This document shows, piece after piece, positions 7,489 to 36,233 of a DNA stretch of 36,379 bases. Each line of letters starts with the position of its first letter. Position 1 is the first letter of the stretch. Source of the DNA: Fidelibacterota bacterium (GTDB lineage: Bacteria; Fidelibacterota; Marinisomatia; Marinisomatales; SCKK01); the NCBI GenBank assembly GCA_004124475.1, contig SCKK01000037.1, forward strand, positions 1 to 36,379, read 5' to 3'. A model generated the notes under the pieces. The model was given only the letters and a program-made list of their open reading frames with translations. It was not told the origin of the DNA and did not search any database. The translations under genes and the position numbers were made by a program.

Positions 7489-8289
7489 TTGATTGATTTT
7501 CATAATCATGTGCTTCCAAATGTTGATGATGGGCCTACATCAATGGAAATGTCTCTATCCATGCTGCAAACGGCTGCAGAGCAAGGAATTACCGATGTTG
7601 TAAACACAGTGCATTATCAGCATCCAAAAATGGGGGGGAAAGAGGTTGGAATTGATGATTTAAGATTTAAGATTGGAAATTTACTGAAAAGATCAAAAAA
7701 GAGAGGGATTGATATTAACATTCATTTGGGTGCGGAGGTTTTTTATCTTCCTAATCTGGTGAAAATTGTGGAAGATCCTCATGTAACTATGGGGAATGGA
7801 AAATATATGCTGATCGAATTTCCGTTTCACATGCTGCCGGATGGACACGAACAGGTTTTATTTGAATTAAAAATGAAAGGTATTACACCCATCATTGCCC
7901 ATCCGGAGCGTTATAGGCCTGTTCAGCAAAATTTGGAAATAGTGCGTAACTGGATTTACAGTGGCAGTTTGATACAAGTGGATGGGGGAAGTTTATTGGG
8001 ATATTTGGGTAGATCAGCAAAGGAAAGTGCCGGTAAAATTATCAGTGAAGGGCTATGCCATATAATTGGGTCTGATGTTCATGATGATAGAAGACGCAAT
8101 TTTTGTCTGGAACAAGCAGTCATCGTAGGAAAGGAACTCATAGGTGATCGAATCATGGAGATGGTGACAACTATTCCTGAAAAAATTTTAAAGGGAGAAC
8201 CCGTGGAGATTGAGGAAATAGAGGTTACCTATCATTCTCCAACATTATTAGATAAAATTAAACGTCGTTTTGATAAAATTGGGAAATAA
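7489..8289 (+). CDS. CpsB/YwqE-type tyrosine-protein phosphatase (PHP domain)
   Basis: This 266-residue cytosolic, manganese-dependent phosphatase of the PHP superfamily is expected to dephosphorylate the C-terminal tyrosines of the Wzc-like kinase encoded two genes downstream. Metal-binding motifs are visible: DFHNHVLP (H5, H7), DDG at 12-14, an HLGAEV segment, HPERY near residue 138 and GSDVHD near 194. The length fits CpsB/YwqE/CapC (about 250). The start is TTG at 7489 because the metal-binding HNH lies at residues 5-7 and no in-frame ATG precedes it; GGGA at 7477-7480 is a weak ribosome binding site. It is the first gene of the polysaccharide operon. Phosphatase plus kinase in one operon is the standard control pair for capsule assembly. 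Confidence 0.92.
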   Translation: MIDFHNHVLPNVDDGPTSMEMSLSMLQTAAEQGITDVVNTVHYQHPKMGGKEVGIDDLRFKIGNLLKRSKKRGIDINIHLGAEVFYLPNLVKIVEDPHVTMGNGKYMLIEFPFHMLPDGHEQVLFELKMKGITPIIAHPERYRPVQQNLEIVRNWIYSGSLIQVDGGSLLGYLGRSAKESAGKIISEGLCHIIGSDVHDDRRRNFCLEQAVIVGKELIGDRIMEMVTTIPEKILKGEPVEIEEIEVTYHSPTLLDKIKRRFDKIGK

Positions 8290-8327
8290 ATTCATGACAA
8301 GATAAGTGAAAAATCAGAGGTTTTATC

Positions 8328-8519
8328 ATGATGAACGATATAGAAATCAGAATGAAGGGACTTCAAATCCTTATATAATCTCTTGGTGATGTTGAAACAG
8401 AACGGTTTGTTTCCCTGATTCAAAAAGAACCCTTTGATTATACGAAGTGGCGCCAAGGATTAGATGAAAATTTGTCCCGAAGCTTCGGGAGGAATTTAGT
8501 CAAAAAGCAATGTCATTGA
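8328..8519 (+). pseudogene. Broken antitoxin-like small gene with a palindrome insertion
   Basis: An ATG at 8328 (or 8331) follows CAGAGG at 8315-8320. It opens a frame reading MNDIEIRMKGLQILI, then hits TAA at 8376-8378. The same frame resumes with SLGDVETERFVSLI and EPFDYTKWRQGLDENLS. From memory this is a common small family of about 65-70 residues (a GLQ.L...LG..E.ERF..L..REPFDYT.WR pattern) often seen beside toxin genes. After ENLS the DNA holds the perfect palindrome TCCCGAAGCTTCGGGA (8475-8490). Beyond it the expected continuation EEFSQKAMSLRNK is found in another frame. So the gene has one nonsense mutation and is disrupted by a repeat. The antitoxin role is an inference; no toxin gene is adjacent. 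Confidence 0.6.
8475..8490. repeat. Perfect 16-base palindrome TCCCGAAGCTTCGGGA
   Basis: This is one member of a family with arms TCCCGAA / TTCGGGA. Others, with one or two centre or arm changes, lie at 5213-5228, 6523-6538, 6662-6677, 13014-13029 and 13221-13236, with a degenerate copy at 7341-7354. This copy falls inside the broken small gene at 8328-8519 and coincides with a change of its reading frame. Confidence 0.75.
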
Positions 8520-8616
8520 GAAACAAAACACCGAACCAGGCACTTGAGTTGTCTGTTTTCCACTCCACTCCGCTCTATTCCAGGGGGCAACTCAGCTTAA
8601 ACGGAAGATGTATTTT

Positions 8617-9144
8617 ATGATGAAAGTATCTATATTTCGATCAGGATTGGCTGTACTTCTGTCTGTTGTAATATTGAACACGACTGTTTTCCCTCAGACA
8701 CAGTTAGAACGACAGAGATATGGCCGGCAGGATTTTCCCCGGAGCGGTGAAAAGTACATCACCGACGAATTCGGCGTGATTCGTATGTGGGTAAACGTGT
8801 GGGGGCATGTCAATAAACCGGGGAGCCATATGGTCTATGACGGAATTGATCTTGTGACACTTCTATCTGTAGCGGGAGGGAATAAAACGGGCGCTAACTT
8901 GAAAAAGGTAAGGCTCTTCAGGGAAACACCGGATAACAACGGTAAGATGATGTACGTTATTAATATGGAGCAATTTCTGAAAACGGGTGACAGGAGTGAT
9001 TTTGTAGAAGTGCTTCCTAATGATACATATATTATACCGCAGAAAGTATCTTCCTTTGTTTTTTCTCGGGCTGGTCTATTCAATACATTTCTAAGCATGG
9101 TTAACATTTACTTACAAATTCTAATATATTCTCAGAGAATTTAA
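8617..9144 (+). CDS. SLBB-domain polysaccharide export protein lacking the Poly_export domain
   Basis: The protein has about 175 residues, with an N-terminal signal or anchor (SGLAVLLSVVILNTTVFP). A single SLBB (soluble ligand-binding beta-grasp) domain follows: RMWVNVWGHVNKPGSHMV, then LVTLLSVAGG.KTGANLKKVRLFRE, and EVLPNDTYIIPQKV. A hydrophobic C-terminal segment (NTFLSMVNIYLQILIY) ends it. Full Wza-type exporters are about 350-400 residues and carry an N-terminal Poly_export domain (PF02563), which is absent here. An ATG also exists at 8608, but GGAAG at 8603-8607 is better spaced for 8617 or 8620. It overlaps the co-polymerase gene by one base (TAATG), so they are coupled. Its likely role is periplasmic or outer-membrane export together with the Wzc-like protein. 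Confidence 0.85.
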   Translation: MMKVSIFRSGLAVLLSVVILNTTVFPQTQLERQRYGRQDFPRSGEKYITDEFGVIRMWVNVWGHVNKPGSHMVYDGIDLVTLLSVAGGNKTGANLKKVRLFRETPDNNGKMMYVINMEQFLKTGDRSDFVEVLPNDTYIIPQKVSSFVFSRAGLFNTFLSMVNIYLQILIYSQRI

Positions 9145-11507
9145 TGACGGAACTTCAACAGTATAACAGTTTCAGTAACCATCAGTTCGGATTTGAAGAG
9201 TCAGAGCGGAGTCTGAAAGATATCTATTATGTACTTCGACGGAACAGTAAGGTCATATTCTGGGTGGGATTTATTGTATTTTTTGTGACAGTTCTTATGA
9301 CATTGTGGATGATTCCCGTATATGAATCCACAGCCATGATCATGGTGGAGGAACCTGACCGGGCAATGACGGTTTTTGATATCGGTTTTGGGGAAGACAT
9401 CAACCTGCTCAACAATGAGATAGAAATTCTGAAATCCCGATCTTTGGCAGAGGCGGTTGTGATGAACTTCTGGAATTCGGATCAGAGAAATAATCTGTTT
9501 CTATTTGGTACGAAGACATACCAACCGATAGGAATCAGAAGAACGGTGAGGAAGGTGCTGACCTTTGGGTTATGGGAGCCTGATGATGTTGATCTTCCTT
9601 ACTATGAGGGTGAAATCAGCGATTCTCTGTTTAATGCATTCGTAAAAGCAGTCAGGGGAAACATGACCGTTTCCAATCAGAGAAGTACGAATATTTTAAA
9701 TGTCATGTACACAAGCAGCGACCCTGTCGAGGCGGCGTTGATCTCCAATACCATCGTCAAACTCTACCAGGAGAGAGATCTGTCATTGAATGTCGGTGAG
9801 TTGATCAATCTGAGAAATTTTTTAGAAGACCAATTAGTAAAAACGGAATCAGATTTGGCTGTGTTAGAAGATTCGTTAAAGTCTTTTCAAGAAAGGGAGC
9901 AGATCTATGGATTGGAAGGAAATGCCGATCTTCTTTTAAAGCAGCTTACTGATATCGAGTCGAAGTACTTTACCACATTGGCGGAAGTAAACATCGTAAA
10001 AGAACGTATACGGTATGTAAGTAACATGTTATCCCGGGAAGAGAAAGAGTTAAAGAACAGACTCCTCAATTCCATTAATCACCGTCTTTTTGCTCTCCGG
10101 ACAGAAATAGCTCAGAATGAAGCTGATCTTATCCGGAATGCCAGTATTTATGGGGAGAATCATGAAGCTGTGAAATCAGTCAGGATTAAGATCGGAAAGT
10201 TGAAAGAGAATTTGAAATACCAGACCGAAGAGCTTATCGCTCAAGGGATCTCATTTGCTGATCCTATAAAATATCGTCAGTCGCTCATTGATACGGCACT
10301 TATCTTTGAAGCCCGGGAGGCGGGACTTATCTCCCGGGCTGGGGAATATAAAAAAGTGGTAGACTTGTACAATAATCAACTAAGTCTTTTACCGGCGAAG
10401 TCGCTCCAATATGCTCGATTAGAACGTGATCGGTCAGTCTTATCACAAACCTATCTCCTGATGCGGCAGAAGTTGGAGGAAGCAAAAATATCCCAGGCAT
10501 CACAATTGGGGAAAGTGAGAATTATTGATCCTGCTATTCCTCCTGAACATCGCACCAAGCCGAAAACGAAACTCAATCTTCTTCTGGGTTTAATCCTTGG
10601 AACGGGATTGGGTGTGGGAGGCGCCTTTTTGTTAGAGTACCTGGATAATACTGTCAAATCAGTGGAAGATATTGAGCGGAGAGGACTCACTATATTAGGT
10701 ATTATTCCAGAGATTGGAGAGCAAAAGCGGTATGGGAAGAAAAGGGGAAGAAAGAAGTCAGGAGCAGGGAATCAGCGGTCGAAGGATGGAGGTGGAAAGG
10801 AAGTATCAATAAGGATCCAACGACGATTGATTACCCATGAAGATCCCAAATCACCCATATCCGAAGCTTACCGTAGCCTCAGAACGAGCTTAATGTACTC
10901 CTCCGCTGATAAGGAGGTGAAGTCTATATTAATTTCCAGTCCGGGACCAGGTGAGGGGAAGACTACCACCGTAACCAATCTTGCTATTACCTATGCAAAT
11001 TTAGGAAAGAAGACTTTGCTTCTGGATACGGATCTGCGGAGGCCTATCCTTCATAGGGCGTTCAAACTGAAGCGCGATCCGGGGATCACCAATTATTTAT
11101 CCGGAGCAACTAAGGACTTTAACAGTCTGGTTCATGAAACTGAGGTGGGAAATCTTTTCGTTGTAACATCCGGAGTAGTACCCCCAAATCCTGCAGAATT
11201 ATTAGGGTCTAACAGAATGGTAAAATTGATGGCAAAACTGGAGAAGGAGTGGGATATAGTCCTATTGGATTCTCCGCCTCTTGTGGCTGTAACCGATGCG
11301 GCGATGATTTCCAAGGAGATAGACCAATTGGTGATGGTAGTCAAATCGGGATTCACCGATAAAGGTGCATTTAACAGAACCTTGCTTGCGATGGAAAACA
11401 TTGATGTTCCCCTGGCTGGTGTGGTGCTGAATGCGGTAACATCGAAGAATTCCTATGGGTCATATTACTACTATTATCAGTATTATCATTATTATGGGGA
11501 TAGTTGA
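9144..11507 (+). CDS. Wzc-like polysaccharide co-polymerase with BY-kinase domain
   Basis: This 787-residue inner-membrane protein governs chain length and export, and autophosphorylates on tyrosine. It has, in order: a cytosolic N-terminus, a Wzz-type transmembrane segment at about 35-57 (VIFWVGFIVFFVTVLMTLW), a long periplasmic coiled-coil region (about 190-410), a GNVR-like stretch ending in PAIPPEHRTKPK, and a second membrane span near 475-495. The kinase follows: Walker A GPGEGKTTT near 600, Walker A' LLLDTDLRRP near 625 and Walker B VLLDSPP near 705. The C-terminus is a tyrosine cluster of ten Tyr within the last 17 residues (from SYGS), the autophosphorylation target. The partner phosphatase is encoded at 7489. 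A basic linker (RYGKKRGRKKSG) sits between the membrane and kinase parts. Confidence 0.95.
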   Translation: MTELQQYNSFSNHQFGFEESERSLKDIYYVLRRNSKVIFWVGFIVFFVTVLMTLWMIPVYESTAMIMVEEPDRAMTVFDIGFGEDINLLNNEIEILKSRSLAEAVVMNFWNSDQRNNLFLFGTKTYQPIGIRRTVRKVLTFGLWEPDDVDLPYYEGEISDSLFNAFVKAVRGNMTVSNQRSTNILNVMYTSSDPVEAALISNTIVKLYQERDLSLNVGELINLRNFLEDQLVKTESDLAVLEDSLKSFQEREQIYGLEGNADLLLKQLTDIESKYFTTLAEVNIVKERIRYVSNMLSREEKELKNRLLNSINHRLFALRTEIAQNEADLIRNASIYGENHEAVKSVRIKIGKLKENLKYQTEELIAQGISFADPIKYRQSLIDTALIFEAREAGLISRAGEYKKVVDLYNNQLSLLPAKSLQYARLERDRSVLSQTYLLMRQKLEEAKISQASQLGKVRIIDPAIPPEHRTKPKTKLNLLLGLILGTGLGVGGAFLLEYLDNTVKSVEDIERRGLTILGIIPEIGEQKRYGKKRGRKKSGAGNQRSKDGGGKEVSIRIQRRLITHEDPKSPISEAYRSLRTSLMYSSADKEVKSILISSPGPGEGKTTTVTNLAITYANLGKKTLLLDTDLRRPILHRAFKLKRDPGITNYLSGATKDFNSLVHETEVGNLFVVTSGVVPPNPAELLGSNRMVKLMAKLEKEWDIVLLDSPPLVAVTDAAMISKEIDQLVMVVKSGFTDKGAFNRTLLAMENIDVPLAGVVLNAVTSKNSYGSYYYYYQYYHYYGDS

Positions 11508-16624: not shown

Positions 16625-17050
16625 ATGGAGAGATTAGTGTATCTCATTGATACAAACGTTTTTCTTGAAGGACTTTTGGAACAAGAAAATTTCGAATCAG
16701 TTCAAACGTTTTTTCAAAATGTCCCAATTGAAAATATTCATATTACCGACCTCTCCCTTCATTCTATTGGAATTATCCTGTATCAGCTCAAAAAATACGA
16801 TCTATTTAAAAGATTTATCGATGATATGATTGCTGATGGTATCAACATTCTTTCCATTTCCCCCATTGATTTAACGAACCTGAACATAACAGTTCAGAAA
16901 CTTTACCTCGATTTTGATGATGCTTACCAGTACTTCGTAGCTGACAAATATGATTTGCAGATGATTAGTTTTGATAAAGAATACTTGGATTTGATCAGTC
17001 CAAAAAACATAAAACCTTTAAATCCTCATCTGTGGAATTTGCTAAGGTAG
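16625..17050 (+). CDS. PIN-domain ribonuclease toxin (VapC-like)
   Basis: This 141-residue PIN-domain protein opens with LVYLIDTNVFLE, where the first catalytic aspartate is D9. The central acidic residues lie in LYLDFDDAYQYFVADKYDL (about 92-110), and the closing ISFDKEYLDL holds the fourth conserved acidic position. PIN toxins of this kind cleave RNA when freed from their antitoxin. The upstream DUF2281-like gene completes a standard type II toxin-antitoxin pair. The pair has no link to polysaccharide chemistry and lies in the gap between the epimerase/cytidylyltransferase remnant and the first decarboxylase, so it looks like an inserted addiction cassette. All motif residues seem intact, so it may be active. 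Confidence 0.85.
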   Translation: MERLVYLIDTNVFLEGLLEQENFESVQTFFQNVPIENIHITDLSLHSIGIILYQLKKYDLFKRFIDDMIADGINILSISPIDLTNLNITVQKLYLDFDDAYQYFVADKYDLQMISFDKEYLDLISPKNIKPLNPHLWNLLR

Positions 17051-17286: not shown

Positions 17287-18219
17287 ATGAAAAGAATCTT
17301 AGTTACCGGCGGTGCCGGCTTCATCGGCTCCCATTTATGCGAGAGATTGCTGGCAGAAGGCAACGAAGTCATCTGCGTTGACAATTTCTACACTGGGAGT
17401 AAGAAGAATATTGAGCATCTGCTAGATCACCATTATTTTGAGCTTATTCGACACGACATCACATTCCCACTTTATTTGGAGATCGACCGGATTTACAACT
17501 TAGCCTGCCCTGCCAGTCCAATCCATTACCAGCGAGATCCTGTATTCACAATTAAGACTTCTGTGCATGGTGCCATTAACATGCTAGGATTAGCGAAACG
17601 TACAAAGGCAAGAATTCTTCAAGCCTCTACATCAGAGGTATATGGAAATCCCCAAGTTCACCCACAGCCAGAAAGTTATTGGGGACATGTGAACCCCATT
17701 GGAACACGAGCGTGTTATGACGAAGGCAAGCGGGCAGCTGAAACTTTGTTTTTTGATTATCACCGCCAACATAATGTGGACATCCGAGTAGGCAGGATTT
17801 TCAACACATTTGGCCCCCGTATGGCCGAGGATGATGGTAGAGTGATCTCTAATTTTATAGTTCAAGCTTTGAGAAATGTGCCCATAACCATTTATGGGGA
17901 CGGGTCGCATACCCGTTCTTTTTGTTATGTGAATGACATGGTGGATGGGTTGATAAAGATGATGAACCAGGAAGAAATCATAGGTCCTGTTAATATTGGC
18001 AATCCCGATGAGATTTCAATAAAGCAATTGGCAGAGGAGATCGTGAGGTTGACTCAGTCCCAAAGTAAAATTGTGTATGAGTCGTTGCCTTCTGATGATC
18101 CCATGCGAAGGAAGCCTGATGTATCGCTGGCCCAAGACAAGCTAGCATGGAAAGTCAACAATCATCGGCTTAGTGGGCTGCGTAACACAATTGACTATTT
18201 CGTCAAAGTGCTGGGGTAG
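17287..18219 (+). CDS. UDP-glucuronate decarboxylase (UDP-xylose synthase type), copy 1
   Basis: This 310-residue extended SDR enzyme converts UDP-glucuronate to UDP-xylose through a 4-keto intermediate. The NAD-binding GGAGFIG lies at residues 8-14. The UXS signature [13 protein letters not shown] (about 78-90), STSEVYGNP (about 118-126), [10 protein letters not shown] (YxxxK near 143-147) and [12 protein letters not shown] are all present. It is a close paralogue of the gene at 19223, 1936 bases downstream with no length change across the aligned part. Copy 1 has two unusual replacements at otherwise conserved family positions ([10 protein letters not shown] where IGPR is usual, and [11 protein letters not shown] where copy 2 has VVRIFNT), so it may be the weaker or decaying copy. 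The start lies close after a GCAAGTAACAAG motif; there is no clear ribosome binding site. Confidence 0.9.
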
Positions 18220-18654: not shown

Positions 18655-19062
18655 ATGGCGTCTGTCGATTTCGATATTCATGAAAAACTAATACTTCTCG
18701 ATTTAGGAATTACCTCCTCTGATGGTTCATGGATAATGTACCTACCTGTGGTTATGGATACGGGTGCTACGAGGACAATTCTGTCCGCGGACATTCTGGT
18801 TGATTTAGGTTATGACCCTGGACACCCATCACTATCAAGGATTAGAATGATAACAGGCAGTGGTGTTGAATATGCACCATGTGTCAATGTTAGTAGCATG
18901 ATTGTGGGAGGTGAAATTATTAATGGCGTAAGCGTCTTATGCCATGATTTACCAGCTGAGGCGGGTATTGATGGACTCCTTGGTTTAAACTTCCTTAAGA
19001 ATTTCGATTTTTCTATTGAATACAGTTCGGGAAGAGTTATGTTTACGAGGATCCAGGCATAG
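18655..19062 (+). CDS. Retropepsin-like aspartic protease
   Basis: This 135-residue single-domain aspartic protease of clan AA has the catalytic DTGAT motif at about residues 35-39 (VVMDTGATRTILS). The second family signature is near 104-113 (GIDGLLGLNFLKNF), followed by a closing strand (SIEYSSGRVMFTR). As in retroviral proteases, one chain carries only one catalytic aspartate, so it must act as a homodimer. No signal peptide is seen, so it is probably cytosolic. It abuts the small gene at 18430 without a gap. The pair lies between a broken epimerase and the second decarboxylase and is unrelated to sugar chemistry, so it looks like an inserted module. The family call is strong; the biological role is unknown. 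Confidence 0.85.
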   Translation: MASVDFDIHEKLILLDLGITSSDGSWIMYLPVVMDTGATRTILSADILVDLGYDPGHPSLSRIRMITGSGVEYAPCVNVSSMIVGGEIINGVSVLCHDLPAEAGIDGLLGLNFLKNFDFSIEYSSGRVMFTRIQA

Positions 19063-19222: not shown

Positions 19223-20158
19223 ATGAAAAAAATTCTAGTTACAGGCGCTGCCGGCTTCATCGGATCACACTTATGTGAATGTCTTCTTGGCGAAGGCAAC
19301 GAAGTTATTTGCGTAGATAACTTCTACACTGGAAGTAAGAAAAACGTGGAACACCTCCTAGATAATCACTATTTTGAACTGATACGCCACGACATCACAT
19401 TTCCGCTCTATTTGGAAATAGACCAGATTTACAATTTGGCCTGTCCGGCGAGTCCAATCCATTACCAGCGAGATCCTGTGTTCACAATAAAAACGAATGT
19501 ACACGGTACCATAAATATGTTGGGTTTGGCCAAACGAACGAAGGCAAGAATTCTTCAAGCTTCTACATCGGAGGTATATGGAAATCCGCAAGTTCACCCA
19601 CAGCCAGAAAGCTATTGGGGACATGTAAATCCAATTGGACCCCGAGCGTGTTATGATGAAGGTAAGCGGGCAGCTGAAACCTTATTTTTTGACTATCACC
19701 GCCAGCATGGGGTAGATATCCGGGTAGTCAGGATTTTCAACACATTTGGTCCTCGGATGGCATTGAACGATGGGAGGGTAGTATCTAATTTTATTGTTCA
19801 GGCATTGAGGAACGAGCCCATCACCATTTATGGTGACGGGTCGCATACCCGTTCTTTTTGTTATATTGATGATATGGTGGATGGGTTGATAAAGATGATG
19901 AACCAGGAAGAAATCATAGGTCCTGTTAATATTGGCAATCCCGATGAGATTTCAATCAAGCAATTGGCGGAGGAGATCGTGAGGTTAACTCAGTCCCAAA
20001 GTGAAATTGTGTATGAGTCGTTGCCTTCTGATGATCCCCAACGACGGAAACCTGATATTTCCTTGGCAAAAAGTAAGCTCTCATGGTCTATAAATAATCA
20101 CAGATTAGATGGATTGAAAAATACAATAGAATACTTCAAAAAGGTGTTGAATGATTAG
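19223..20158 (+). CDS. UDP-glucuronate decarboxylase (UDP-xylose synthase type), copy 2
   Basis: This 311-residue enzyme has the same fold and motifs as copy 1: GAAGFIG (8-14), [34 protein letters not shown] with the catalytic YxxxK, and [14 protein letters not shown]. Unlike copy 1 it keeps the usual IGPR and [13 protein letters not shown], so it is probably the fully active copy. At DNA level most of the gene differs from copy 1 at many third positions, but 19874-20038 matches 17938-18102 at 161 of 165 bases, a sign of recent gene conversion. Both copies would draw UDP-glucuronate away from the 4-epimerase toward UDP-xylose, implying pentose in the polymer. Confidence 0.93.
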
Positions 20159-26312: not shown

Positions 26313-27290
26313 ATGAAAGCACTAGTTACTGGAGGTGCTGGCTTTATTGGCAGTCACTTATCAGAAAAATTAATTGAACAAGGAGATTATGTAACCGTAA
26401 TTGATGATCTTTCAACAGGTAATTTCAACAATATAAAACATTTAACTGATAATCCCCATTTTAATTTTGCAATTGAAACAATATTAGATGAACTTGTTAT
26501 AGACAGATTAGTAAGTGAATGTGACATTATTTATCATTTGGCTGCTGTTGTTGGGGTTGAGCTTGTGGTAAAGGAATCGGTGCGTACTATAGAGACCAAT
26601 GTATTGGGTACTACTATAATGTTGAAAACTGCAAATAGATATAAAAAAAGAATTATTTTGACTTCAACATCTGAAATTTATGGTAAAGGAGTTAATGATT
26701 CATTTGGAGAAAATGACGATAGATTAATGGGACCAATTGTAAATAGCAGGTGGATTTATGCTTGTTCAAAAAGTCTGGATGAATTTCTTGCATTGGCATA
26801 TTTTAATCAAAAGAAATTACCAGTGGTGATATGTCGTCTATTTAATACGATTGGACCTCGACAAACAGGATTTTATGGAATGGTAGTCCCACGTTTTATT
26901 CGACAAGGTTTAACTGGTAAAGATTTAACTGTATACGGAGATGGTAGACAATCTCGTTGTTTTTGTAATGTAACAGATGTGGTTGAAGCATTAATACTGT
27001 TATCAAATAGTAGTAAAGCGGATGGAGAGGTTTATAATATAGGTAGCACCCAAAGTATCACAATTTGCGATTTGGCCAAAAAAATAATTTCCTTAACAAA
27101 TAATTCTTTAAAAATAATATTCGTTCCTTATGAAGAAGCATATGGAGAAGGATTTGAAGACATGCTGAGGAGAAAACCAAACATAAAAAAAATACATAAT
27201 GCGTTTAATTGGCAGCCAAGGATCTCTCTTGATGATTCATTGCAAAGTATAATTGAATATGAAAAAGATTTATTGAATATACCCCAGTAA
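26313..27290 (+). CDS. NAD-dependent sugar epimerase/dehydratase (extended SDR)
   Basis: This 325-residue extended SDR protein has [12 protein letters not shown] at 8-19, VIDDLSTGNFNNI as the second-strand loop, YHLAAVVGVELVV near 83-95, TSTSEIYGKG (about 119) and YACSKSLDE with the YxxxK near 148. The RLFNTIGPRQTGFYGMVVPRFI segment and GDGRQSRCFCNVTD follow. The combination resembles GalE- and UXS-like enzymes; the STSEIYGKG / RLFNTIGPRQTG blocks are seen in ArnA-decarboxylase- and GalE-like subgroups of polysaccharide loci. I cannot tell epimerase from decarboxylase by eye. It is AT-rich like its neighbours, and about 35-40 percent similar to the two decarboxylases at 17287 and 19223, so it is a separate acquisition. 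Confidence 0.85.
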   Translation: MKALVTGGAGFIGSHLSEKLIEQGDYVTVIDDLSTGNFNNIKHLTDNPHFNFAIETILDELVIDRLVSECDIIYHLAAVVGVELVVKESVRTIETNVLGTTIMLKTANRYKKRIILTSTSEIYGKGVNDSFGENDDRLMGPIVNSRWIYACSKSLDEFLALAYFNQKKLPVVICRLFNTIGPRQTGFYGMVVPRFIRQGLTGKDLTVYGDGRQSRCFCNVTDVVEALILLSNSSKADGEVYNIGSTQSITICDLAKKIISLTNNSLKIIFVPYEEAYGEGFEDMLRRKPNIKKIHNAFNWQPRISLDDSLQSIIEYEKDLLNIPQ

Positions 27291-28867: not shown

Positions 28868-29893
28868 ATGAAAATTCTCTTCATTGGTAACCTTAACAAA
28901 TATACACGCTCTTATCAACGATTTAGAGCCATGGTTGAAATGGGTTATGAGGTTAAGGGTTTATCATTCGAACCTATAGGGACTGTGGCAGGTATAACAG
29001 AAGATACCCGCACTTTATATCAAAAGGTTATGAATAAACTTGGTCACCCTTTGGATATAACAGATGTAAATGGGAAAATGATAAATGAATATAATAGGAT
29101 ACATTATGATTTGGCCTGGATTGAAAAAGGATTGATGGTAAAACCAAAAATACTTAATCAGATTAAAGAAAAGGTAAAGACAAAACTTTTGTTTTATTCT
29201 AATGACAATATGTCAAAAAAACATTATCAATCAAGATACTTTTTACAATCAATCTGTATATATGATTATATAGTTATAATAAAAGAATATAATGCAGATT
29301 TTTTCACTATTAGAGGATGTAAAAATGTTATATCAGTTGATCGTTCATATGATAAATATTATATAAAAAATCGACCTGACAATACTCCATATATATATGA
29401 TGTGGTTTTTATAGGTACTTACGAAAAACATAGGTACAAAATGTTATTGGAATTGGCGAATGAAGGAATTACTGTTACTGTTTTTGGAAACAACTGGCCA
29501 ATGTATTCAAACCCGTTTTTAAATATTATGCACAGGCCAATATATGGAGACGAGTTTATATATGTAATGCACACGTCTAAAATTATTCTTAATTTTCTTA
29601 GAAAATGTAATGATGATAAAACCACCGGTCGGACATTTGAAATCCCCGCATCTGGTTCCTTTATGCTTTCAGAAAGGACAAAAGAGCAGTTGAAATATTT
29701 TGAGGAAGGCAAAGAGTCTGAGTTTTTCGGTAGCAAAGAAGAGTTGTTAGAAAAATCAATTTATTACTTGAATCACGATGAAAAACGTGAGTCTATTGCA
29801 AGAGAAGGGAGAAAACGTTGTGTGTATAGCGGTTATAGTCACCATGATCGTTTGGAATACATATTGAGTGAAATTAACAGAACACGTAATTAG
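28868..29893 (+). CDS. CgeB-like glycosyltransferase (GT1-like C-terminal domain)
   Basis: This 341-residue protein begins MKILFIGNLNKYTRSYQRFR. It has YDVVFIGTYEKHRYKMLLEL in the middle (about 176), FGNNWP near 203, and the C-terminal EIPASGSFMLSERTKEQLKY and YFEEGKESEFFGSKEELLEK. The last two blocks are the signature of the CgeB / Glyco_trans_1_2 family (PF13524), in which G(G)FLLSe.....fFe.GkE...f.s.eEL is conserved. CgeB-type proteins take part in spore-coat and envelope glycosylation and are frequent in polysaccharide loci, but their donor and acceptor are mostly unknown. One base separates its TAG from the next ATG, so the two are co-translated. Confidence 0.82.
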   Translation: MKILFIGNLNKYTRSYQRFRAMVEMGYEVKGLSFEPIGTVAGITEDTRTLYQKVMNKLGHPLDITDVNGKMINEYNRIHYDLAWIEKGLMVKPKILNQIKEKVKTKLLFYSNDNMSKKHYQSRYFLQSICIYDYIVIIKEYNADFFTIRGCKNVISVDRSYDKYYIKNRPDNTPYIYDVVFIGTYEKHRYKMLLELANEGITVTVFGNNWPMYSNPFLNIMHRPIYGDEFIYVMHTSKIILNFLRKCNDDKTTGRTFEIPASGSFMLSERTKEQLKYFEEGKESEFFGSKEELLEKSIYYLNHDEKRESIAREGRKRCVYSGYSHHDRLEYILSEINRTRN

Positions 29894-29894
29894 T

Positions 29895-30593
29895 ATGAAA
29901 AACTTGATTAAGAAATTTTATCACGAGCATTTTATTACAGATTTAACACGTCGTTTAACAACTTTAAAGTTATTCGATGAAGTTAGGAGAGATGGGGGTA
30001 AAATTTTGATAATTGGTGCAGGTGGAATGAATGAATGGAAATTCTTTGAAAACCAATGTTTTGATGTACATGTGCTGGATTTAAGAAAAATAGAAGGGCC
30101 AAAACATTTCTATCAGCAATCAATAACAGAAAAAACACCATTCAATGATCAAGAATTTGACTACATCATAATGTCAATCGTACTAGAATACGTTATTGAT
30201 GATATTAGAGCGCTACAAGAAATATTCAGGATACTGAAAGATGGTGGGTCATTGATTATCCAAATTTATTACTATAAGGATAAAACAAATTTTCCACTCA
30301 GAATTTATTCCAGAGATACGATTACTGATATATTGAAGTATGTACAATTTAAAATAATAAGGATTTATCCCTGGGGATTTATGAACTATTTATTTTCATA
30401 TCGACTGATAAAGATATTAATCCTTTTAATGATTAAGTTTTTTATTAAGGACTTATCTGTCTGGGTAAAGATTGACAAACTGTTGTCTAAGAAATTTGAT
30501 TTTATGAGAAAATACATAAGCTTTCCAGGCGGCGGTTTTATAGTTTGCAGGAAAAACCACAGTTTGAAGTTTCAACATTATGTAGATATATAA
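29895..30593 (+). CDS. Class I SAM-dependent methyltransferase
   Basis: This 232-residue protein has KILIIGAGGMNEWKFFEN (motif I, about 37-54), VHVLDLRKIEGPK (motif II) and FDYIIMSIVLEYVIDD then IFRILKDGGSLIIQIYYY. The motif I GAGG replaces the usual GCGxG, and LEYV replaces LEH. The C-terminal third is strongly hydrophobic (LIKILILLMIKFFIK), suggesting membrane contact, as for enzymes acting on lipid-linked sugars. The start is taken as ATG 29895, just after the CgeB-like stop at 29891-29893, rather than an earlier in-frame TTG-type start that would overlap it. Very AT-rich, as the block around it. Confidence 0.78.
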   Translation: MKNLIKKFYHEHFITDLTRRLTTLKLFDEVRRDGGKILIIGAGGMNEWKFFENQCFDVHVLDLRKIEGPKHFYQQSITEKTPFNDQEFDYIIMSIVLEYVIDDIRALQEIFRILKDGGSLIIQIYYYKDKTNFPLRIYSRDTITDILKYVQFKIIRIYPWGFMNYLFSYRLIKILILLMIKFFIKDLSVWVKIDKLLSKKFDFMRKYISFPGGGFIVCRKNHSLKFQHYVDI

Positions 30594-30671: not shown

Positions 30672-32294
30672 ATGCCTGTCATTGATATTAGACAATTAGA
30701 CAACAAAAGAATCATTAATTCGGATGTATGTATTGTTGGGGGGGGTATCTCTGGCGTTATTTTGGCAGAAAAACTTAGTGAAAAGTCTAAGGTTTCTCTT
30801 ATAGAAAGTGGTGATATTAAACCAAATGATGAAATACAATCATTATATAATCTAGATTGCGTTGGTTATCCATTACGACCCGATTTTCAGAGTAGAGTCA
30901 GGCAGCTTGGTGGTAGCTGCAACTTATGGCCGGGACGATGCATGATACTCAATGAATTAGATTTCAGAAAAAGAGAGTGGGTTAATTATAGTGGGTGGCC
31001 AATCACTTATGCAGAATTGATACAATATTATCAACCTGCAGCGGTGATACTCAACTTACCTTCAATTGAATTATTTAAATCTGATTATAAATTTAATGAA
31101 TATTGTAATATTGGAAAATCTATACGATCTACTAATAAATTTATCTTTAGGAATTCCTTATGGGCAAAAAAACCAGAACGATTTGGACATAAGACAAGGC
31201 ACTGGCATACACTTAAAACAAATCAAAATATTACTATGTACATCCATGCGAACCTGAATCATATAGAATTGAGCGAATCGAAACAGGCGGTAAACAGTAT
31301 TCTGGTAAAAACCCTTAGCGAGAAATCATTCATTTTTAAAAGCAGGTTTTTGATTCTGGCCTGCGGAGGGATTGAAAACGCAAGGATTTTGTTATCGTCA
31401 AGGAGCCAGATGAAGAATGGTGTTGGTAATGACCATGACCTTGTAGGAAGGTACTATATGGATCACCCAACCGCTGTATCAACCGAAATCAAACTTAAGA
31501 AGAAAATTTTTCCTTCTTATTTGTTTGGGTTACCAATTAAAAACGGCAGGGTACAAATAGGCATAGGTTTTAATGATGATTACCAGTCAAGAAAGGGTTT
31601 GCTGAATAACTACGTTCAACTTGAACCTAAGTTTCCTCAAAAATATGAGGAAGCCTATGAGGTAATTATCAGGAACGCAAAGAAATTGTTAAGAAAAGGT
31701 TATTCAGGCCATCGATTTACTTTTGGCAACGTTGGAATTACGAAAATACCTGAAATTATATATCTTCTAACTCCCAAAGATCTAATCCCTCATTTCTTGA
31801 TCAGGTGGTATAGTGGTTGGCAGAAATTGTTTGCCAGGCCTATTGGTGCTGACCAATTGGTTATGGTACATCATTTAGAACAAGAACCAGACCCCGAAAG
31901 TAGAGTATTATTAAATCATGAAAAAGATGTGCTTGGGATGAATTGCGTTTCGCTTAATTGGAAGATTAGTAACAAATCAAAACGAACTGCAGACATCTTA
32001 CAAAGACAATTATACCAATACCTAAAACAAACAGGTTTGGTTAAAAGGAACGATACCTTTTTTAATGAGAATTTATCTGACTTTAAAGATGCTTCACATC
32101 ATATGGGAACAACCCGTATGGGTGAAAATGAAAAAACAGGTGTTGTGGACAAGAACTGTAAAGTTTTTGGTATTGATAATCTATATATTGCTGGCAGTTC
32201 CATATTTCCCACATCTGGCCATGCAAATTCGACTCTGACCATTGCAGCTTTGGCATTACGACTTGCGGAACATATACGGATGCGCATGTCATGA
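30672..32294 (+). CDS. GMC-family FAD-dependent oxidoreductase
   Basis: This 540-residue glucose-methanol-choline family enzyme oxidises an alcohol to an aldehyde or ketone using FAD. The dinucleotide-binding CIVGGGISGVILAEKL lies near 20-35 and ends with the acidic ESGD. A GGSCNLWPGRC loop near 86, LACGGIENARILL near 232 and GRYYMDHP follow. The C-terminal HHMGTTRMG (about 475) and AGSSIFPTSGHANSTLTI (about 506-523) hold the His/Asn catalytic pair. There is no signal peptide, so it acts in the cytosol. Its stop overlaps the aminotransferase start by ATGA, strongly implying successive or linked reactions, such as oxidising a sugar hydroxyl that is then aminated. GC content rises again relative to the preceding block. 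Confidence 0.9.
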   Translation: MPVIDIRQLDNKRIINSDVCIVGGGISGVILAEKLSEKSKVSLIESGDIKPNDEIQSLYNLDCVGYPLRPDFQSRVRQLGGSCNLWPGRCMILNELDFRKREWVNYSGWPITYAELIQYYQPAAVILNLPSIELFKSDYKFNEYCNIGKSIRSTNKFIFRNSLWAKKPERFGHKTRHWHTLKTNQNITMYIHANLNHIELSESKQAVNSILVKTLSEKSFIFKSRFLILACGGIENARILLSSRSQMKNGVGNDHDLVGRYYMDHPTAVSTEIKLKKKIFPSYLFGLPIKNGRVQIGIGFNDDYQSRKGLLNNYVQLEPKFPQKYEEAYEVIIRNAKKLLRKGYSGHRFTFGNVGITKIPEIIYLLTPKDLIPHFLIRWYSGWQKLFARPIGADQLVMVHHLEQEPDPESRVLLNHEKDVLGMNCVSLNWKISNKSKRTADILQRQLYQYLKQTGLVKRNDTFFNENLSDFKDASHHMGTTRMGENEKTGVVDKNCKVFGIDNLYIAGSSIFPTSGHANSTLTIAALALRLAEHIRMRMS

Positions 32295-33532
32295 GCCGAT
32301 CATCATTGATTATTTTCAGGGGTTTAAGTATTGTATACAAAATTTTCTATATACTGCAACCCGTTGAAATATTGAAGAAAGTATTAAAGGTATTATCGGT
32401 TTCTTCGGCAGTCATCAAAAATCAAACTACTTTTTATCCTAAGTTTGTCCTAGATTTTGAAAACAGTTTTGCAGAATATATTGGTTGTAAATATGGTTTG
32501 AGTTTCTGCAACGGTACGTCTTCGATTGAAGCAGCCTTATTTGCATTAAACATTGGCCCTGGTGATGAGGTATTAGTACCTTCTGCAACATTTCACGCGT
32601 CCATAAATCCTATTCTGAATGCAGGCGCTACGCCGGTGTACATAGATATTGATAAAGAAACTGTGACCATTTCACCATCAGATTTGCGTAGAAAAATAAC
32701 CACCAACTCAAAAAGCATAATGGTAGTACACCTGTGGGGCAATGTAGCAGAAATGGATGAAATCATTCAAATTGCAAAAGATCACGGGCTAAGTATCATT
32801 GAGGATGCATCCCACGCTCATGGTGCCGAGTGGGATGGGGAAAAGGTAGGGTCCCTTGGTGACATCGGTTGTTTCAGTTTGCAAGGGTCCAAACCAATAT
32901 CAGCAGGCGAGGGAGGTATGGCTGTCACAAATTCTGAAAATCTATTTTACCGGATGTCAATGTATGGGCATTTCGGTAGACATGGAACTGAAATAAATTA
33001 TCAAGACAATAATATTAGTAAAACAGGGCTGGGTACAAAAAGAAGAGCCAACCCCCTTGGGATTGCCGCTGCAAATATAGATTTACGATATAACGATTAC
33101 TATAACAGGAAGAAAAACAAGAATTGGAGAAGATTGGGAAATACAATAAATAAAATGCTGGGCTTGCAAATGTCTGAAAAATCAGCGCAAGTCTTAATGG
33201 GAGGTTATTTTGGCGGAATTCCATTACGTGTTAATAACAAAAAAGCAAGTGTGCGTACCATTATAAAACTGTTGAATCAATGCGGGATTGCTGCTCATGC
33301 TTACCCTTACCCTATGCATCATCAAATGGGTCATATGATTGATGTGGACTATCGGAATATACTTTTTAATGTGAAGGCGACCGAAAACATTGAATTTGAT
33401 TCAGTATCATTGCCAGTCACTGAAACATTGCCATCCAAATTATTGTTCCTCGATAGCAGATTTCTTGTTTTCCTTCCTTTCTGGATGAAATGGGTTTTAG
33501 CTAAAGTACTCAAACGGTCAACAACAGTTTGA
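32291..33532 (+). CDS. DegT/DnrJ/EryC1/StrS-family PLP aminotransferase
   Basis: This 413-residue PLP enzyme of the sugar aminotransferase family transfers an amino group to a keto-sugar. YIGCKYGLSFCNGTSSIEAAL near 59-80 binds PLP phosphate. GDEVLVPSATFHASINPIL and IIEDASHAHGAEWDG (PLP-ring Asp) follow, then SLQGSKPISAGEGG, where the Lys near residue 201 is the PLP-forming lysine. The N-terminus has about 45 extra residues, hydrophobic and basic (LIIFRGLSIVYKIFYILQP), which could bind membrane. An insertion of about 50 residues follows the lysine domain (YYNRKKNKNWRR). It overlaps the GMC oxidoreductase gene, so a ketone made by that flavoenzyme is a reasonable substrate; this is an inference. 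Confidence 0.9.
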   Translation: MSRSSLIIFRGLSIVYKIFYILQPVEILKKVLKVLSVSSAVIKNQTTFYPKFVLDFENSFAEYIGCKYGLSFCNGTSSIEAALFALNIGPGDEVLVPSATFHASINPILNAGATPVYIDIDKETVTISPSDLRRKITTNSKSIMVVHLWGNVAEMDEIIQIAKDHGLSIIEDASHAHGAEWDGEKVGSLGDIGCFSLQGSKPISAGEGGMAVTNSENLFYRMSMYGHFGRHGTEINYQDNNISKTGLGTKRRANPLGIAAANIDLRYNDYYNRKKNKNWRRLGNTINKMLGLQMSEKSAQVLMGGYFGGIPLRVNNKKASVRTIIKLLNQCGIAAHAYPYPMHHQMGHMIDVDYRNILFNVKATENIEFDSVSLPVTETLPSKLLFLDSRFLVFLPFWMKWVLAKVLKRSTTV

Positions 33533-33540
33533 GTAATATA

Positions 33541-34266
33541 ATGTTGAGTCAAATAATGACAGGGAATAGAGATATTGGCGTGACAAGATATGATGGCAAG
33601 AATATTTACGGGTACGGCAATGTGAGATTAGCACCGCATTATGTTATGCATCTAATAAATCCTTTATTTCCATTCTCGAGTTTGTTGGACATCGGTTGTG
33701 GAGATGGAATTGTCAAAGATTATTTACCCGAAAAAGAAAGGGGGGAGGTAGATTATATCGGCATTGATATTGGTGCCGGTATTTATGAGGAAACCAAGAG
33801 TCCTAATATAAAGTACGTACGGGACCATCAAAAGTTGTTGAATAGTATCAATGATACATATGATGTATCTATTTTGATCAATGTCCTTGAGCACACCCTG
33901 GATTTTACCAGTTTGTTTAAGATGGCATTAGAAAAGACAAAAATGTATATACTTGTTACTTTGCCGAATGCAGAAAACATTCATGAACGTTTGAGGTTTC
34001 TTTTAGGAAAAGGAATCAAAACACATATGTTGGACATGATAGGTCTTCACCCTAATCACCGCCATTTGTGGTTGATACAGATAGAAAAGGCGGTAAGGAT
34101 TCTTGAGTCAATAGCAAAAAATTATGAATTTCAATTGATTAATATAACACACTACTTAGCGTTTCCAACAACACCATGGAAAAGAATGATCTATCGATCT
34201 GTGGTTTATCCTTTGCCTTGGTCTGTCAAAGCGAGAAGTTTTGCTATGTTATTTGAAAAAATTTAA
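33541..34266 (+). CDS. Class I SAM-dependent methyltransferase
   Basis: This 241-residue protein has LLDIGCGDGIVKDYLPEK (motif I, about 44-61), YIGIDIGAGIY (motif II), VSILINVLEHTLDFTSLF (motif with LEH) and YILVTLPNAENIHERLRF. It fits the Methyltransf_11/23 groups. ATG 33541 is chosen because the upstream in-frame TTG at 33529 would overlap the preceding gene, and only nine bases lie between that stop and this ATG. It sits between the aminotransferase and a GT4 gene, so it most likely methylates the amino or hydroxyl group of the same sugar, for example an N-methylation; that is speculative. Confidence 0.85.
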   Translation: MLSQIMTGNRDIGVTRYDGKNIYGYGNVRLAPHYVMHLINPLFPFSSLLDIGCGDGIVKDYLPEKERGEVDYIGIDIGAGIYEETKSPNIKYVRDHQKLLNSINDTYDVSILINVLEHTLDFTSLFKMALEKTKMYILVTLPNAENIHERLRFLLGKGIKTHMLDMIGLHPNHRHLWLIQIEKAVRILESIAKNYEFQLINITHYLAFPTTPWKRMIYRSVVYPLPWSVKARSFAMLFEKI

Positions 34267-34280
34267 ACATCGGTTAAACA

Positions 34281-35429
34281 ATGAAAATATCAGTCAGTAT
34301 CAACGGTAGGTTTCATTTTTTTGATATCGCTGCTCAATTTCATCAACGAGGGTATTTGCAACAGTTAATTACATCATATCCAAAGTTCAAAGTAAACGAA
34401 TGGGGCGTGCCAAATACCAAGATTAAGTCCATGGTTCTTTTGGAACTTATGAATAGATCAGGAAAACATTTTGGTAATGGTAGAAAATATTTAACGTTAC
34501 TCCAAAAAAAAATGTATGGAAAATGGTCACGAATGGTCCTAGACAACGACATAGATATATTCCTTTTTTTTGCAGGTAATGGTTTTAATTCAAAGCTACT
34601 AAATGATCTTAAAGAAAAGAATGTAGTCACAGTTGCAGATGAAGGCAGTTCACATGTTTTGTATCAAAACTCGATCCTTAAGGAAGAGTCTGAGATCACT
34701 GGAATCAATTTTTTTAAGGAACCGAATAAGAAATTGGTTGATGAGACTCTACTCGAATATGATTTATCTCATTATATCTTAGTCCCTTCAATTTTTGTTG
34801 AGCGTTCATTTCTTGATCAGGGAATACCAGAAAATAAGCTGATACGCATACCTTGGGGCGTGGATTTATCCCACTTCAAACAGGTCCCAAAAGAAGATGA
34901 AACCTTCAGGATTGTTTTTGCCGGTGGTCTAACCCTGCAAAAAGGTGTACATTATCTCTTGCAGGCTTTCCACGAATTAGACCTTCCCGATGCAGAACTC
35001 TGGCTTGTGGGTGGCCCTGGATATGGAATAAAGCATTTTCTTACACAATACAACAATGGCAAGGTCAGACTTAAAGGTCGTCAGCCTCAGTCGCAGCTTC
35101 ACTGGTTTTATTCTCAGTGTGATGTCTATTGTCAACCTTCAATTCAGGATGGATTTGCAATGGTGATATCCCAGGCAATGGCCTGCGGTCTGCCAATCAT
35201 CTGCACCACCAATACAGGTGCGAAGGATTTGATTGAAGAGGGAAAAGAAGGTTTTGTGGTGCCCATCCGTGACGTGAAGGCCTTAAAAGAGAAAATCCTC
35301 TATTTGTATCAAAATCCTGATATTTGTAAGAAAATGGGATATGCCGCACGAAAAAAAATTGAGACGGGATTTACTTGGGATGATTTTGGTGATCGTTTCA
35401 TAAATGAATGCAAAAGGATTTTGGGATGA
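34281..35429 (+). CDS. GT4-family glycosyltransferase
   Basis: This 382-residue GT-B protein starts MKISVSINGRFHFFDIAAQF. The N-terminal half has DEGSSHVLYQ near 125 and YILVPSIFVERSFLDQG; the donor half has RIPWGVDLSHF, RIVFAGGLTLQKGVHYLL (about 212), LWLVGGPGYG and RLKGRQPQSQLHWFYSQCDV. The usual EX7E motif is DGFAMVISQAMACGLP, with Asp and Gln at the two Glu positions, a variant seen in some GT4 subgroups. The stop overlaps the FkbM-like gene by ATGA. It is AT-rich but less so than 24600-30600. It probably adds the decorated amino sugar made by the preceding genes. Confidence 0.88.
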   Translation: MKISVSINGRFHFFDIAAQFHQRGYLQQLITSYPKFKVNEWGVPNTKIKSMVLLELMNRSGKHFGNGRKYLTLLQKKMYGKWSRMVLDNDIDIFLFFAGNGFNSKLLNDLKEKNVVTVADEGSSHVLYQNSILKEESEITGINFFKEPNKKLVDETLLEYDLSHYILVPSIFVERSFLDQGIPENKLIRIPWGVDLSHFKQVPKEDETFRIVFAGGLTLQKGVHYLLQAFHELDLPDAELWLVGGPGYGIKHFLTQYNNGKVRLKGRQPQSQLHWFYSQCDVYCQPSIQDGFAMVISQAMACGLPIICTTNTGAKDLIEEGKEGFVVPIRDVKALKEKILYLYQNPDICKKMGYAARKKIETGFTWDDFGDRFINECKRILG

Positions 35430-36233
35430 TCAAAGAATTCAATGTTTCAAAATATCATAAGTTATTATATGGCCTGCTCTATAAGGTCAGGCCAGCTTTT
35501 CTTACTGATATATTAAAGCGATTACTACTTATTCGTAGACGTGTTTTTGTGACTAAGTATGGAAAATTATTTATTGATCCTGTTACGACTATAGGCAAGG
35601 CTCTTATACAAGATACTCAAATATGAACCCGATATGACATATTCAATAAAAACTATTCTTAACAATGGAGATAAATTCATTGATATCGGTGCCAATGAAG
35701 GGTTTTTTTCATTAATTGCATCAAGAATAGTCGGGAGTTCAGGGAAAGTCATTGCAATTGAGCCACAAAGTCGGATACAAGAAGTTTTAATAAGGAATAT
35801 ATCAGAGAACAATGCATTAAATATAGAATTACATCAAATAGTTATATCTGACAAAAAAGGAGTTGCTACCCTGCATTTGTCACCTTTAAGTATACATGGA
35901 TCTACCCCGATTTTTAAAGGATGGCAAAAATATAGTGTTTCTACTGAATATGTATTAATGACAACATTATCTGCGTTCCTATCTATGGTAAATATTAGCA
36001 AAATTAAGCTAGTGAAAATTGATGTTGAGAGTTCGGAATATGAAATAATCTTAGGATCTAAGGATGTTTTTTCAACAGGTCTCATTGAAAATATTGCACT
36101 GGAATTACACCCCGATAGGTTAAAAAAAAGAGGTAAATCAGAAAAAGAAATTATTGATTTTTTACTGTCAATCGGCTACAAACAAAACTACGCATTTAAG
36201 AATTTAATCTTATCATGGGGAATGGAACAGTGA
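35426..36233 (+). pseudogene. FkbM-family methyltransferase, interrupted by a one-base frameshift
   Basis: The first part (ATG 35426) reads MIKEFNVSKYHKLLYGLLYK, later KYGKLFIDPVTTIGKALIQD, and stops at 35624-35626. The next frame, one base offset, continues YEPDMTYSIKTILNNGD, FIDIGANEGFFSLIASRIVG (motif I), IAIEPQS (motif II) and VKIDVESSEYEIILGS, with IALELHPDRLKKRGKS at the end. These are the FkbM (PF05050) hallmarks: DIGANxGxFS and KIDVEGxEx. Removing one A from the AAA at 35619-35621 joins them into a normal protein of about 269 residues. An ATGA overlap with the GT4 gene marks the true start. It may methylate a sugar hydroxyl. The shift could be real or a sequencing error. Confidence 0.82.

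Follow-up and report, generated by a model that had tools for sequence, protein, structure and literature searches.

A gene for a GMC-family flavoprotein and a gene for a DegT/DnrJ/EryC1/StrS aminotransferase are joined by a stop/start overlap in a polysaccharide locus of a Fidelibacterota bacterium, and their context indicates that the two enzymes probably act in sequence, converting a hydroxyl to an amine. The gene order, the overlap and the intact catalytic motifs of both proteins were observed directly, as were the membership of the aminotransferase in a small clade and the kinds of enzyme encoded upstream of that clade. The notable part is that three unrelated types of oxidising enzyme precede a single clade of aminotransferases, a pattern based on five loci.

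The flavoprotein and aminotransferase genes in their locus

The window (the whole stretch of 36,379 nucleotides that was analysed) carries the markers of a Wzc-type polysaccharide locus (Table 1); beyond position 11507 the same locus contains a UDP-GlcNAc 2-epimerase gene, several SDRs, glycosyltransferases and methyltransferases. The first-pass annotation had described a GMC gene overlapping a DegT gene by ATGA, with a methyltransferase and a GT4 gene following directly, and the open reading frames, the overlap and the downstream order were all confirmed. The Methyltransf_23 gene is listed with a TTG start at 33529 and has an in-frame ATG at 33541. G+C content is ~0.31 over roughly 25–31 kb, 0.37 over the GMC–DegT pair and about 0.42 earlier in the window. 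At the thresholds applied, 244 other genomes of the phylum (one of the same genus included) contained no match to either gene of the pair, so the two were likely acquired together; by inference, the region is likely an acquired island. Elsewhere in the window, tandem SDR genes related to UDP-xylose synthase (17287–18219 and 19223–20158; protein identity 90%, DNA identity 85.5%) have a small gag-type aspartyl-protease ORF (18655–19062) between them, and a toxin-like PIN-domain ORF (16625–17050) stands isolated amid the polysaccharide genes.

Table 1. Features of the window discussed in the text.
Feature	Position	Strand	Remarks
CpsB/CapC, SLBB export protein and Wzz/BY-kinase genes	7489..11507	+	Wzc-type polysaccharide locus markers
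SDR gene	26313..27290	+	UDP-4-keto-pentose/UDP-xylose synthase-related, below cut-off; rival keto-sugar source
Methyltransf_11 gene	29868..30593	+	adjoins GMC gene on its upstream side
GMC-family flavoprotein gene	30672..32294	+	540 aa; proposed alcohol-to-carbonyl step
ATGA stop/start overlap of GMC and DegT genes	32291..32294	+	
DegT/DnrJ/EryC1/StrS aminotransferase gene	32291..33532	+	413 aa; proposed carbonyl-to-amine step
Methyltransf_23 SAM methyltransferase gene	33529..34266	+	profile match; directly 3' of DegT gene
GT4 glycosyltransferase gene	34281..35429	+	profile match; follows Methyltransf_23 gene
FkbM-family methyltransferase gene	35634..36233	+	next locus gene after GT4

The GMC protein matched the PF05199 (GMC_oxred_C) profile at 4.7e-25, with 89 bits against a cut-off of 24.6; no GMC_oxred_N match was reported for it at E<=0.001 in the profile search. 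A check of the active sites, proposed with the earlier annotation, found the expected residues of both enzymes in place. In the GMC protein the FAD site has its GxGxxG motif (G23/G25/G28) and Glu45, the catalytic pair His476/Asn519 aligns with His1147/Asn1190 of FDH, and the predicted structure (pLDDT 86) matches the FDH fold; the active site thus looks intact, as judged from sequence. Its best solved relatives, by both sequence and predicted fold, are FAD glucose dehydrogenase and membrane fructose dehydrogenase (PDB 6a2u and 8jej), which share the same His/Asn pair at about 20% identity, followed by pyranose and C-glycoside oxidases. In place of the original 'FAD oxidase', 'dehydrogenase or oxidase' is the safer name because the best matches are dehydrogenases. 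The fructose and glucose dehydrogenases form complexes with additional subunits, of which none was seen in the window. A relation to Neo11 through the label of PDB 7dve ('6'''-hydroxyparomomycin C oxidase') was set aside, the title of that entry being C-glycoside oxidase.

The aminotransferase matched PF01041 (DegT) at 3.2e-79 with 267 bits. Membership of DegT was judged by the family profile together with the PLP lysine, a His at that position denoting the dehydratase type; the protein has the lysine (Lys201, within CFSLQGSK) and the catalytic Asp172. It was also compared with models of named nucleotide-sugar aminotransferases (ArnB, PseC, WecE and others) carrying curated equivalog cut-offs, and reached none of these (PseC, the best, 172 versus 423.5; ArnB 145 versus 631). 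As the AlphaFold model had a pLDDT of 68 and weak termini, its fold alone was used; structural matches were best among sugar-active enzymes, including perosamine synthase, BtrR, WbpE/WlbE and KdnA.

Oxidoreductase genes upstream of the aminotransferase clade

In a tree of 19 DegT proteins, the window aminotransferase grouped with those of four other loci (L050, L107, L110 and L017) in one clade with support of 100/99. Clade members have the motifs SHAHGA, CFSL, GH[FV]xR and KxRxx[PQ][LV], the last two as GHFxR and KxRAxPLG in the window; the set is diagnostic rather than any single motif, since SHAHGA also occurs in L111, outside the clade. The aminotransferases of L108 and L109, considered as further members, fell outside. 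In all five members the gene immediately preceding that of the aminotransferase, in the same orientation, encodes an oxidoreductase: GMC in two, BtrN-like radical-SAM in one and Gfo/Idh/MocA in two.

L050, a polysaccharide locus in a Flavobacteriaceae MAG, has a homologous GMC–DegT pair with a one-base overlap; its aminotransferase is 39% identical to that of the window, and downstream of the pair is a GT4 homologue (31% identical to the window GT4). The aminotransferase nearest to that of the window, at 46–47% identity, is encoded in L107 and was found by a search with the aminotransferase only. The gene order there (radical-SAM/SPASM, aminotransferase, TylF methyltransferase, GT4) repeats the oxidoreductase–aminotransferase–methyltransferase–GT4 order of the window, with different methyltransferase families and distantly alike GT4s. 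BtrN was the only strong PDB match of the radical-SAM/SPASM protein (8.7e-21; next match 0.023), and amino sugars may be made through radical-SAM chemistry outside butirosin as well. This four-gene cassette (L107:7039–11232; BtrN-like radical-SAM, DegT, TylF and GT4) adjoins a polyprenyl synthetase gene.

A Gfo/Idh/MocA gene is upstream of the aminotransferase gene in L110, where the two have a short overlap, and directly upstream in L017, where a GMC gene lies two genes off on the opposite strand. L110, which came from a second aminotransferase-only search, is on an IMG/VR 'viral' contig where a tyrosine-integrase-like ORF adjoins the Gfo/Idh and DegT genes (L110:4583–8501); the contig probably represents host DNA bordering a prophage. 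L050 and L017 entered the sample through their GMC gene; L107 and L110 are free of that bias, having been found via the aminotransferase alone. Searches with the aminotransferase in samples drawn from the order and the phylum of the L050 MAG gave no match beyond that MAG, so the clade is rare.

Among the 14 DegT proteins outside the clade, one (L116) is preceded directly by such a codirectional oxidoreductase gene, of a GH109-like type; the neighbours of the rest are acetyltransferase, methyltransferase, SDR or GT genes, or are divergent or unrelated. Fisher tests gave p=0.0005 for 5/5 versus 1/14, p=0.006 without the two GMC cases (3/3 versus 1/14) and p=0.025 for L107 and L110 on their own. 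Because the partner categories were set post hoc, the p values serve as no more than a guide.

The first-pass annotation had also singled out a hydrophobic N-terminal extension of the aminotransferase as suited to a lipid-linked substrate. The N-terminus is hydrophobic (best 19-residue Kyte–Doolittle mean 1.57), but it is only about 15–19 residues longer than those of the two nearest relatives ahead of the conserved FE motif, in a part of the window model where confidence is low. L050 has this hydrophobic N-terminus too and L107, the nearest relative, lacks it, so that the idea of a lipid-linked substrate gains no support from it.

GMC relatives and their neighbourhoods

Relatives of the GMC protein at 28–45% identity are widespread, many of them within polysaccharide loci. 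When neighbours were tallied in a sample of GMC-relative loci, GT4, SDR and methyltransferase families were abundant and DegT was outside the 25 commonest. A DegT gene was present within the fetched flanks at 3 of 80 GMC-relative genome loci (L017, L050 and L089) and directly adjacent on the same strand at one (L050); the recurrent linkage that had been suggested as a check is thus found, but it is rare. In a GMC tree, the window protein formed one clade with L011, L012 and L014 (support 100/99), and none of these three close relatives has a DegT neighbour in its locus, indicating that this type of GMC protein is not dependent on the aminotransferase. Exopolysaccharide loci with a GMC relative and no DegT gene were also seen (L006, L009 and L010).

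Several further associations were observed. The closest GMC relative (L011:8845–11572; 45%), in a Desulfobacterales MAG, is 88 bp downstream of a Gfo/Idh/MocA gene. Small ORFs of about 120–140 amino acids with no Pfam match adjoin several GMC relatives (L006:11587–11958, L010:9581–9973, L014:5457–5861 and L017:9535–9960); they possibly encode a partner subunit and are absent from the window. Two rhizobial plasmid loci (L008:6507–9602 and L004:8556–11755) have divergent DegT and GMC genes, a second and independent association of the two families; they were left out of the pair count because their DegT proteins fall outside the clade and the genes are not codirectional. Viral contigs searched with each protein singly gave no match, and phage records gave none for GMC. 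No description of a GMC–DegT pair in a polysaccharide locus was found in the literature, many subscription papers being outside the scope of that search.

A proposed relay, its alternatives and known systems

In the relay that we propose, the GMC flavoprotein would oxidise a single hydroxyl to a carbonyl on a sugar that may be free, glycosidic or lipid-linked, passing the electrons of its FADH2 to some acceptor, and the DegT enzyme would transaminate this carbonyl using PLP and an amino-acid donor. The Methyltransf_23 enzyme may N- or O-methylate the product, and the GT4 enzyme would put that product, or a neighbour, into surface polysaccharide. On this reading the aminotransferase would be the stable core of such cassettes, its oxidising partner having been exchanged for unrelated enzymes in other bacteria. 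The known sugar substrates of GMC enzymes are free sugars and glycosides, not nucleotide sugars, which makes a glycoside or glycolipid a plausible substrate. The oxidise-then-transaminate logic put forward in the earlier annotation is supported by the L050 pair and by the oxidoreductase upstream throughout the aminotransferase clade; its view of the pair as an unusual, flavin-linked route to an amino sugar in a polysaccharide locus is likewise supported. Several points weigh against the relay: the close GMC relatives L011, L012 and L014 have no DegT neighbour, so this GMC type has a task apart from transamination; the analysis yielded only two codirectional GMC–DegT operons of this kind, of which L050 was found via its GMC gene; the comparison of the clade covers five members and was drawn post hoc; and SDRs of the locus could supply keto sugars.

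More tentatively, the five loci may represent a family of surface-glycan cassettes with one aminotransferase clade and an exchanged oxidoreductase, either FAD (GMC), radical-SAM (BtrN-like) or NAD (Gfo/Idh/MocA), perhaps acting on a preformed glycoside and not on a nucleotide sugar. If true, polysaccharide amino sugars would be made by a flavin route (radical-SAM in the relative) where NAD enzymes are the rule, there would be a sequence signature for finding such loci, and the swapped partners, with one aminotransferase clade pairable with three kinds of oxidoreductase, make the coupling testable.

The supply of keto sugars by an SDR is the basis of an ordinary nucleotide-sugar route, in which the aminotransferase would act on a product such as UDP-4-keto-pentose, in the way that ArnB follows ArnA, with the GMC enzyme working separately. 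Nucleotide 4-keto sugars are the usual substrates of DegT enzymes in polysaccharide loci; perosamine synthase, a sugar-nucleotide enzyme, is among the best structural matches; and the SDR of Table 1 scored 176 bits against the UDP-4-keto-pentose/UDP-xylose synthase model (cut-off 294) and 168 against ArnA. This SDR is, however, several genes distant and below every curated cut-off, the aminotransferase falls far short of ArnB, and its clade is located behind alcohol-oxidising enzyme families; we therefore regard such a route as unlikely. The position of the clade also bears on whether the GMC enzyme could instead serve to decorate a polysaccharide or a lipid-linked sugar by oxidation (keto sugar, lactone or uronate), its adjacency to DegT reflecting co-location in a modular island. 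The exopolysaccharide loci with a GMC relative and no DegT, and the single same-strand adjacency in 80 genome loci, would fit this; given the stop/start overlap, the similar pair in L050 and the oxidoreductases upstream across the whole clade, it seems quite improbable. Least probable by far is amination of an inositol-like ring hydroxyl in the manner of BtrN and BtrR: the nearest aminotransferase relative does lie behind a BtrN-like enzyme and BtrR is among the structural matches, but the bacterium's own genome (about 95% complete; controls positive) had no match to myo-inositol-phosphate synthase (PF07994).

Set beside known systems, the hydroxyl-to-amine relay of the window would be a variant of the established dehydrogenase-plus-DegT relay, with a GMC protein as its oxidising half. 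WlbA/WlbE and KdnB/KdnA are dehydrogenase and DegT aminotransferase pairs for surface-glycan amino sugars; WlbA is of the Gfo/Idh/MocA family and KdnB is a metal-dependent alcohol dehydrogenase, so that neither pair includes a GMC flavoprotein, unlike the window. BtrN, a two-electron alcohol dehydrogenase of butirosin biosynthesis (PMC9012708), and BtrR (PDB 4m7t and 2c7t for the two enzymes) likewise combine a non-NAD alcohol dehydrogenase with a DegT aminotransferase in one pathway, although BtrN is a radical-SAM enzyme acting on an aminocyclitol. The BtrQ/Neo11 type had been cited as a precedent, and it is no GMC/DegT pair: the Neo11 homologue GenQ partners class III aminotransferases, GenB1–4 being of that class and resembling Neo18 (PMC4039129). 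In GenQ/GenB1 and Neo11/Neo18, as is proposed for the window, a flavin-linked dehydrogenase works ahead of a PLP aminotransferase at a sugar carbon, but the window aminotransferase is of DegT type and not of class III.

Closer in logic than Neo11/GenQ is the gentamicin system GenD2/GenS2/GenN, which carries out 3''-oxidation, transamination and N-methylation (PMC4340712). There, an oxidoreductase, an aminotransferase and a methyltransferase act in turn on a preformed glycoside, taking a hydroxyl to ketone, amine and N-methylamine, and from this third step a role may be proposed for the methyltransferase of the window. GenD2 depends on NAD(P) and belongs to an antibiotic pathway, whereas the window has a GMC flavoprotein in a polysaccharide locus and a methyltransferase whose role is predicted. 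In Caulobacter, a mutant in the GMC-family gene CC_1278 had very low holdfast staining (PMC13001252), a possible functional hint for GMC-family enzymes in surface glycans, subfamily aside.
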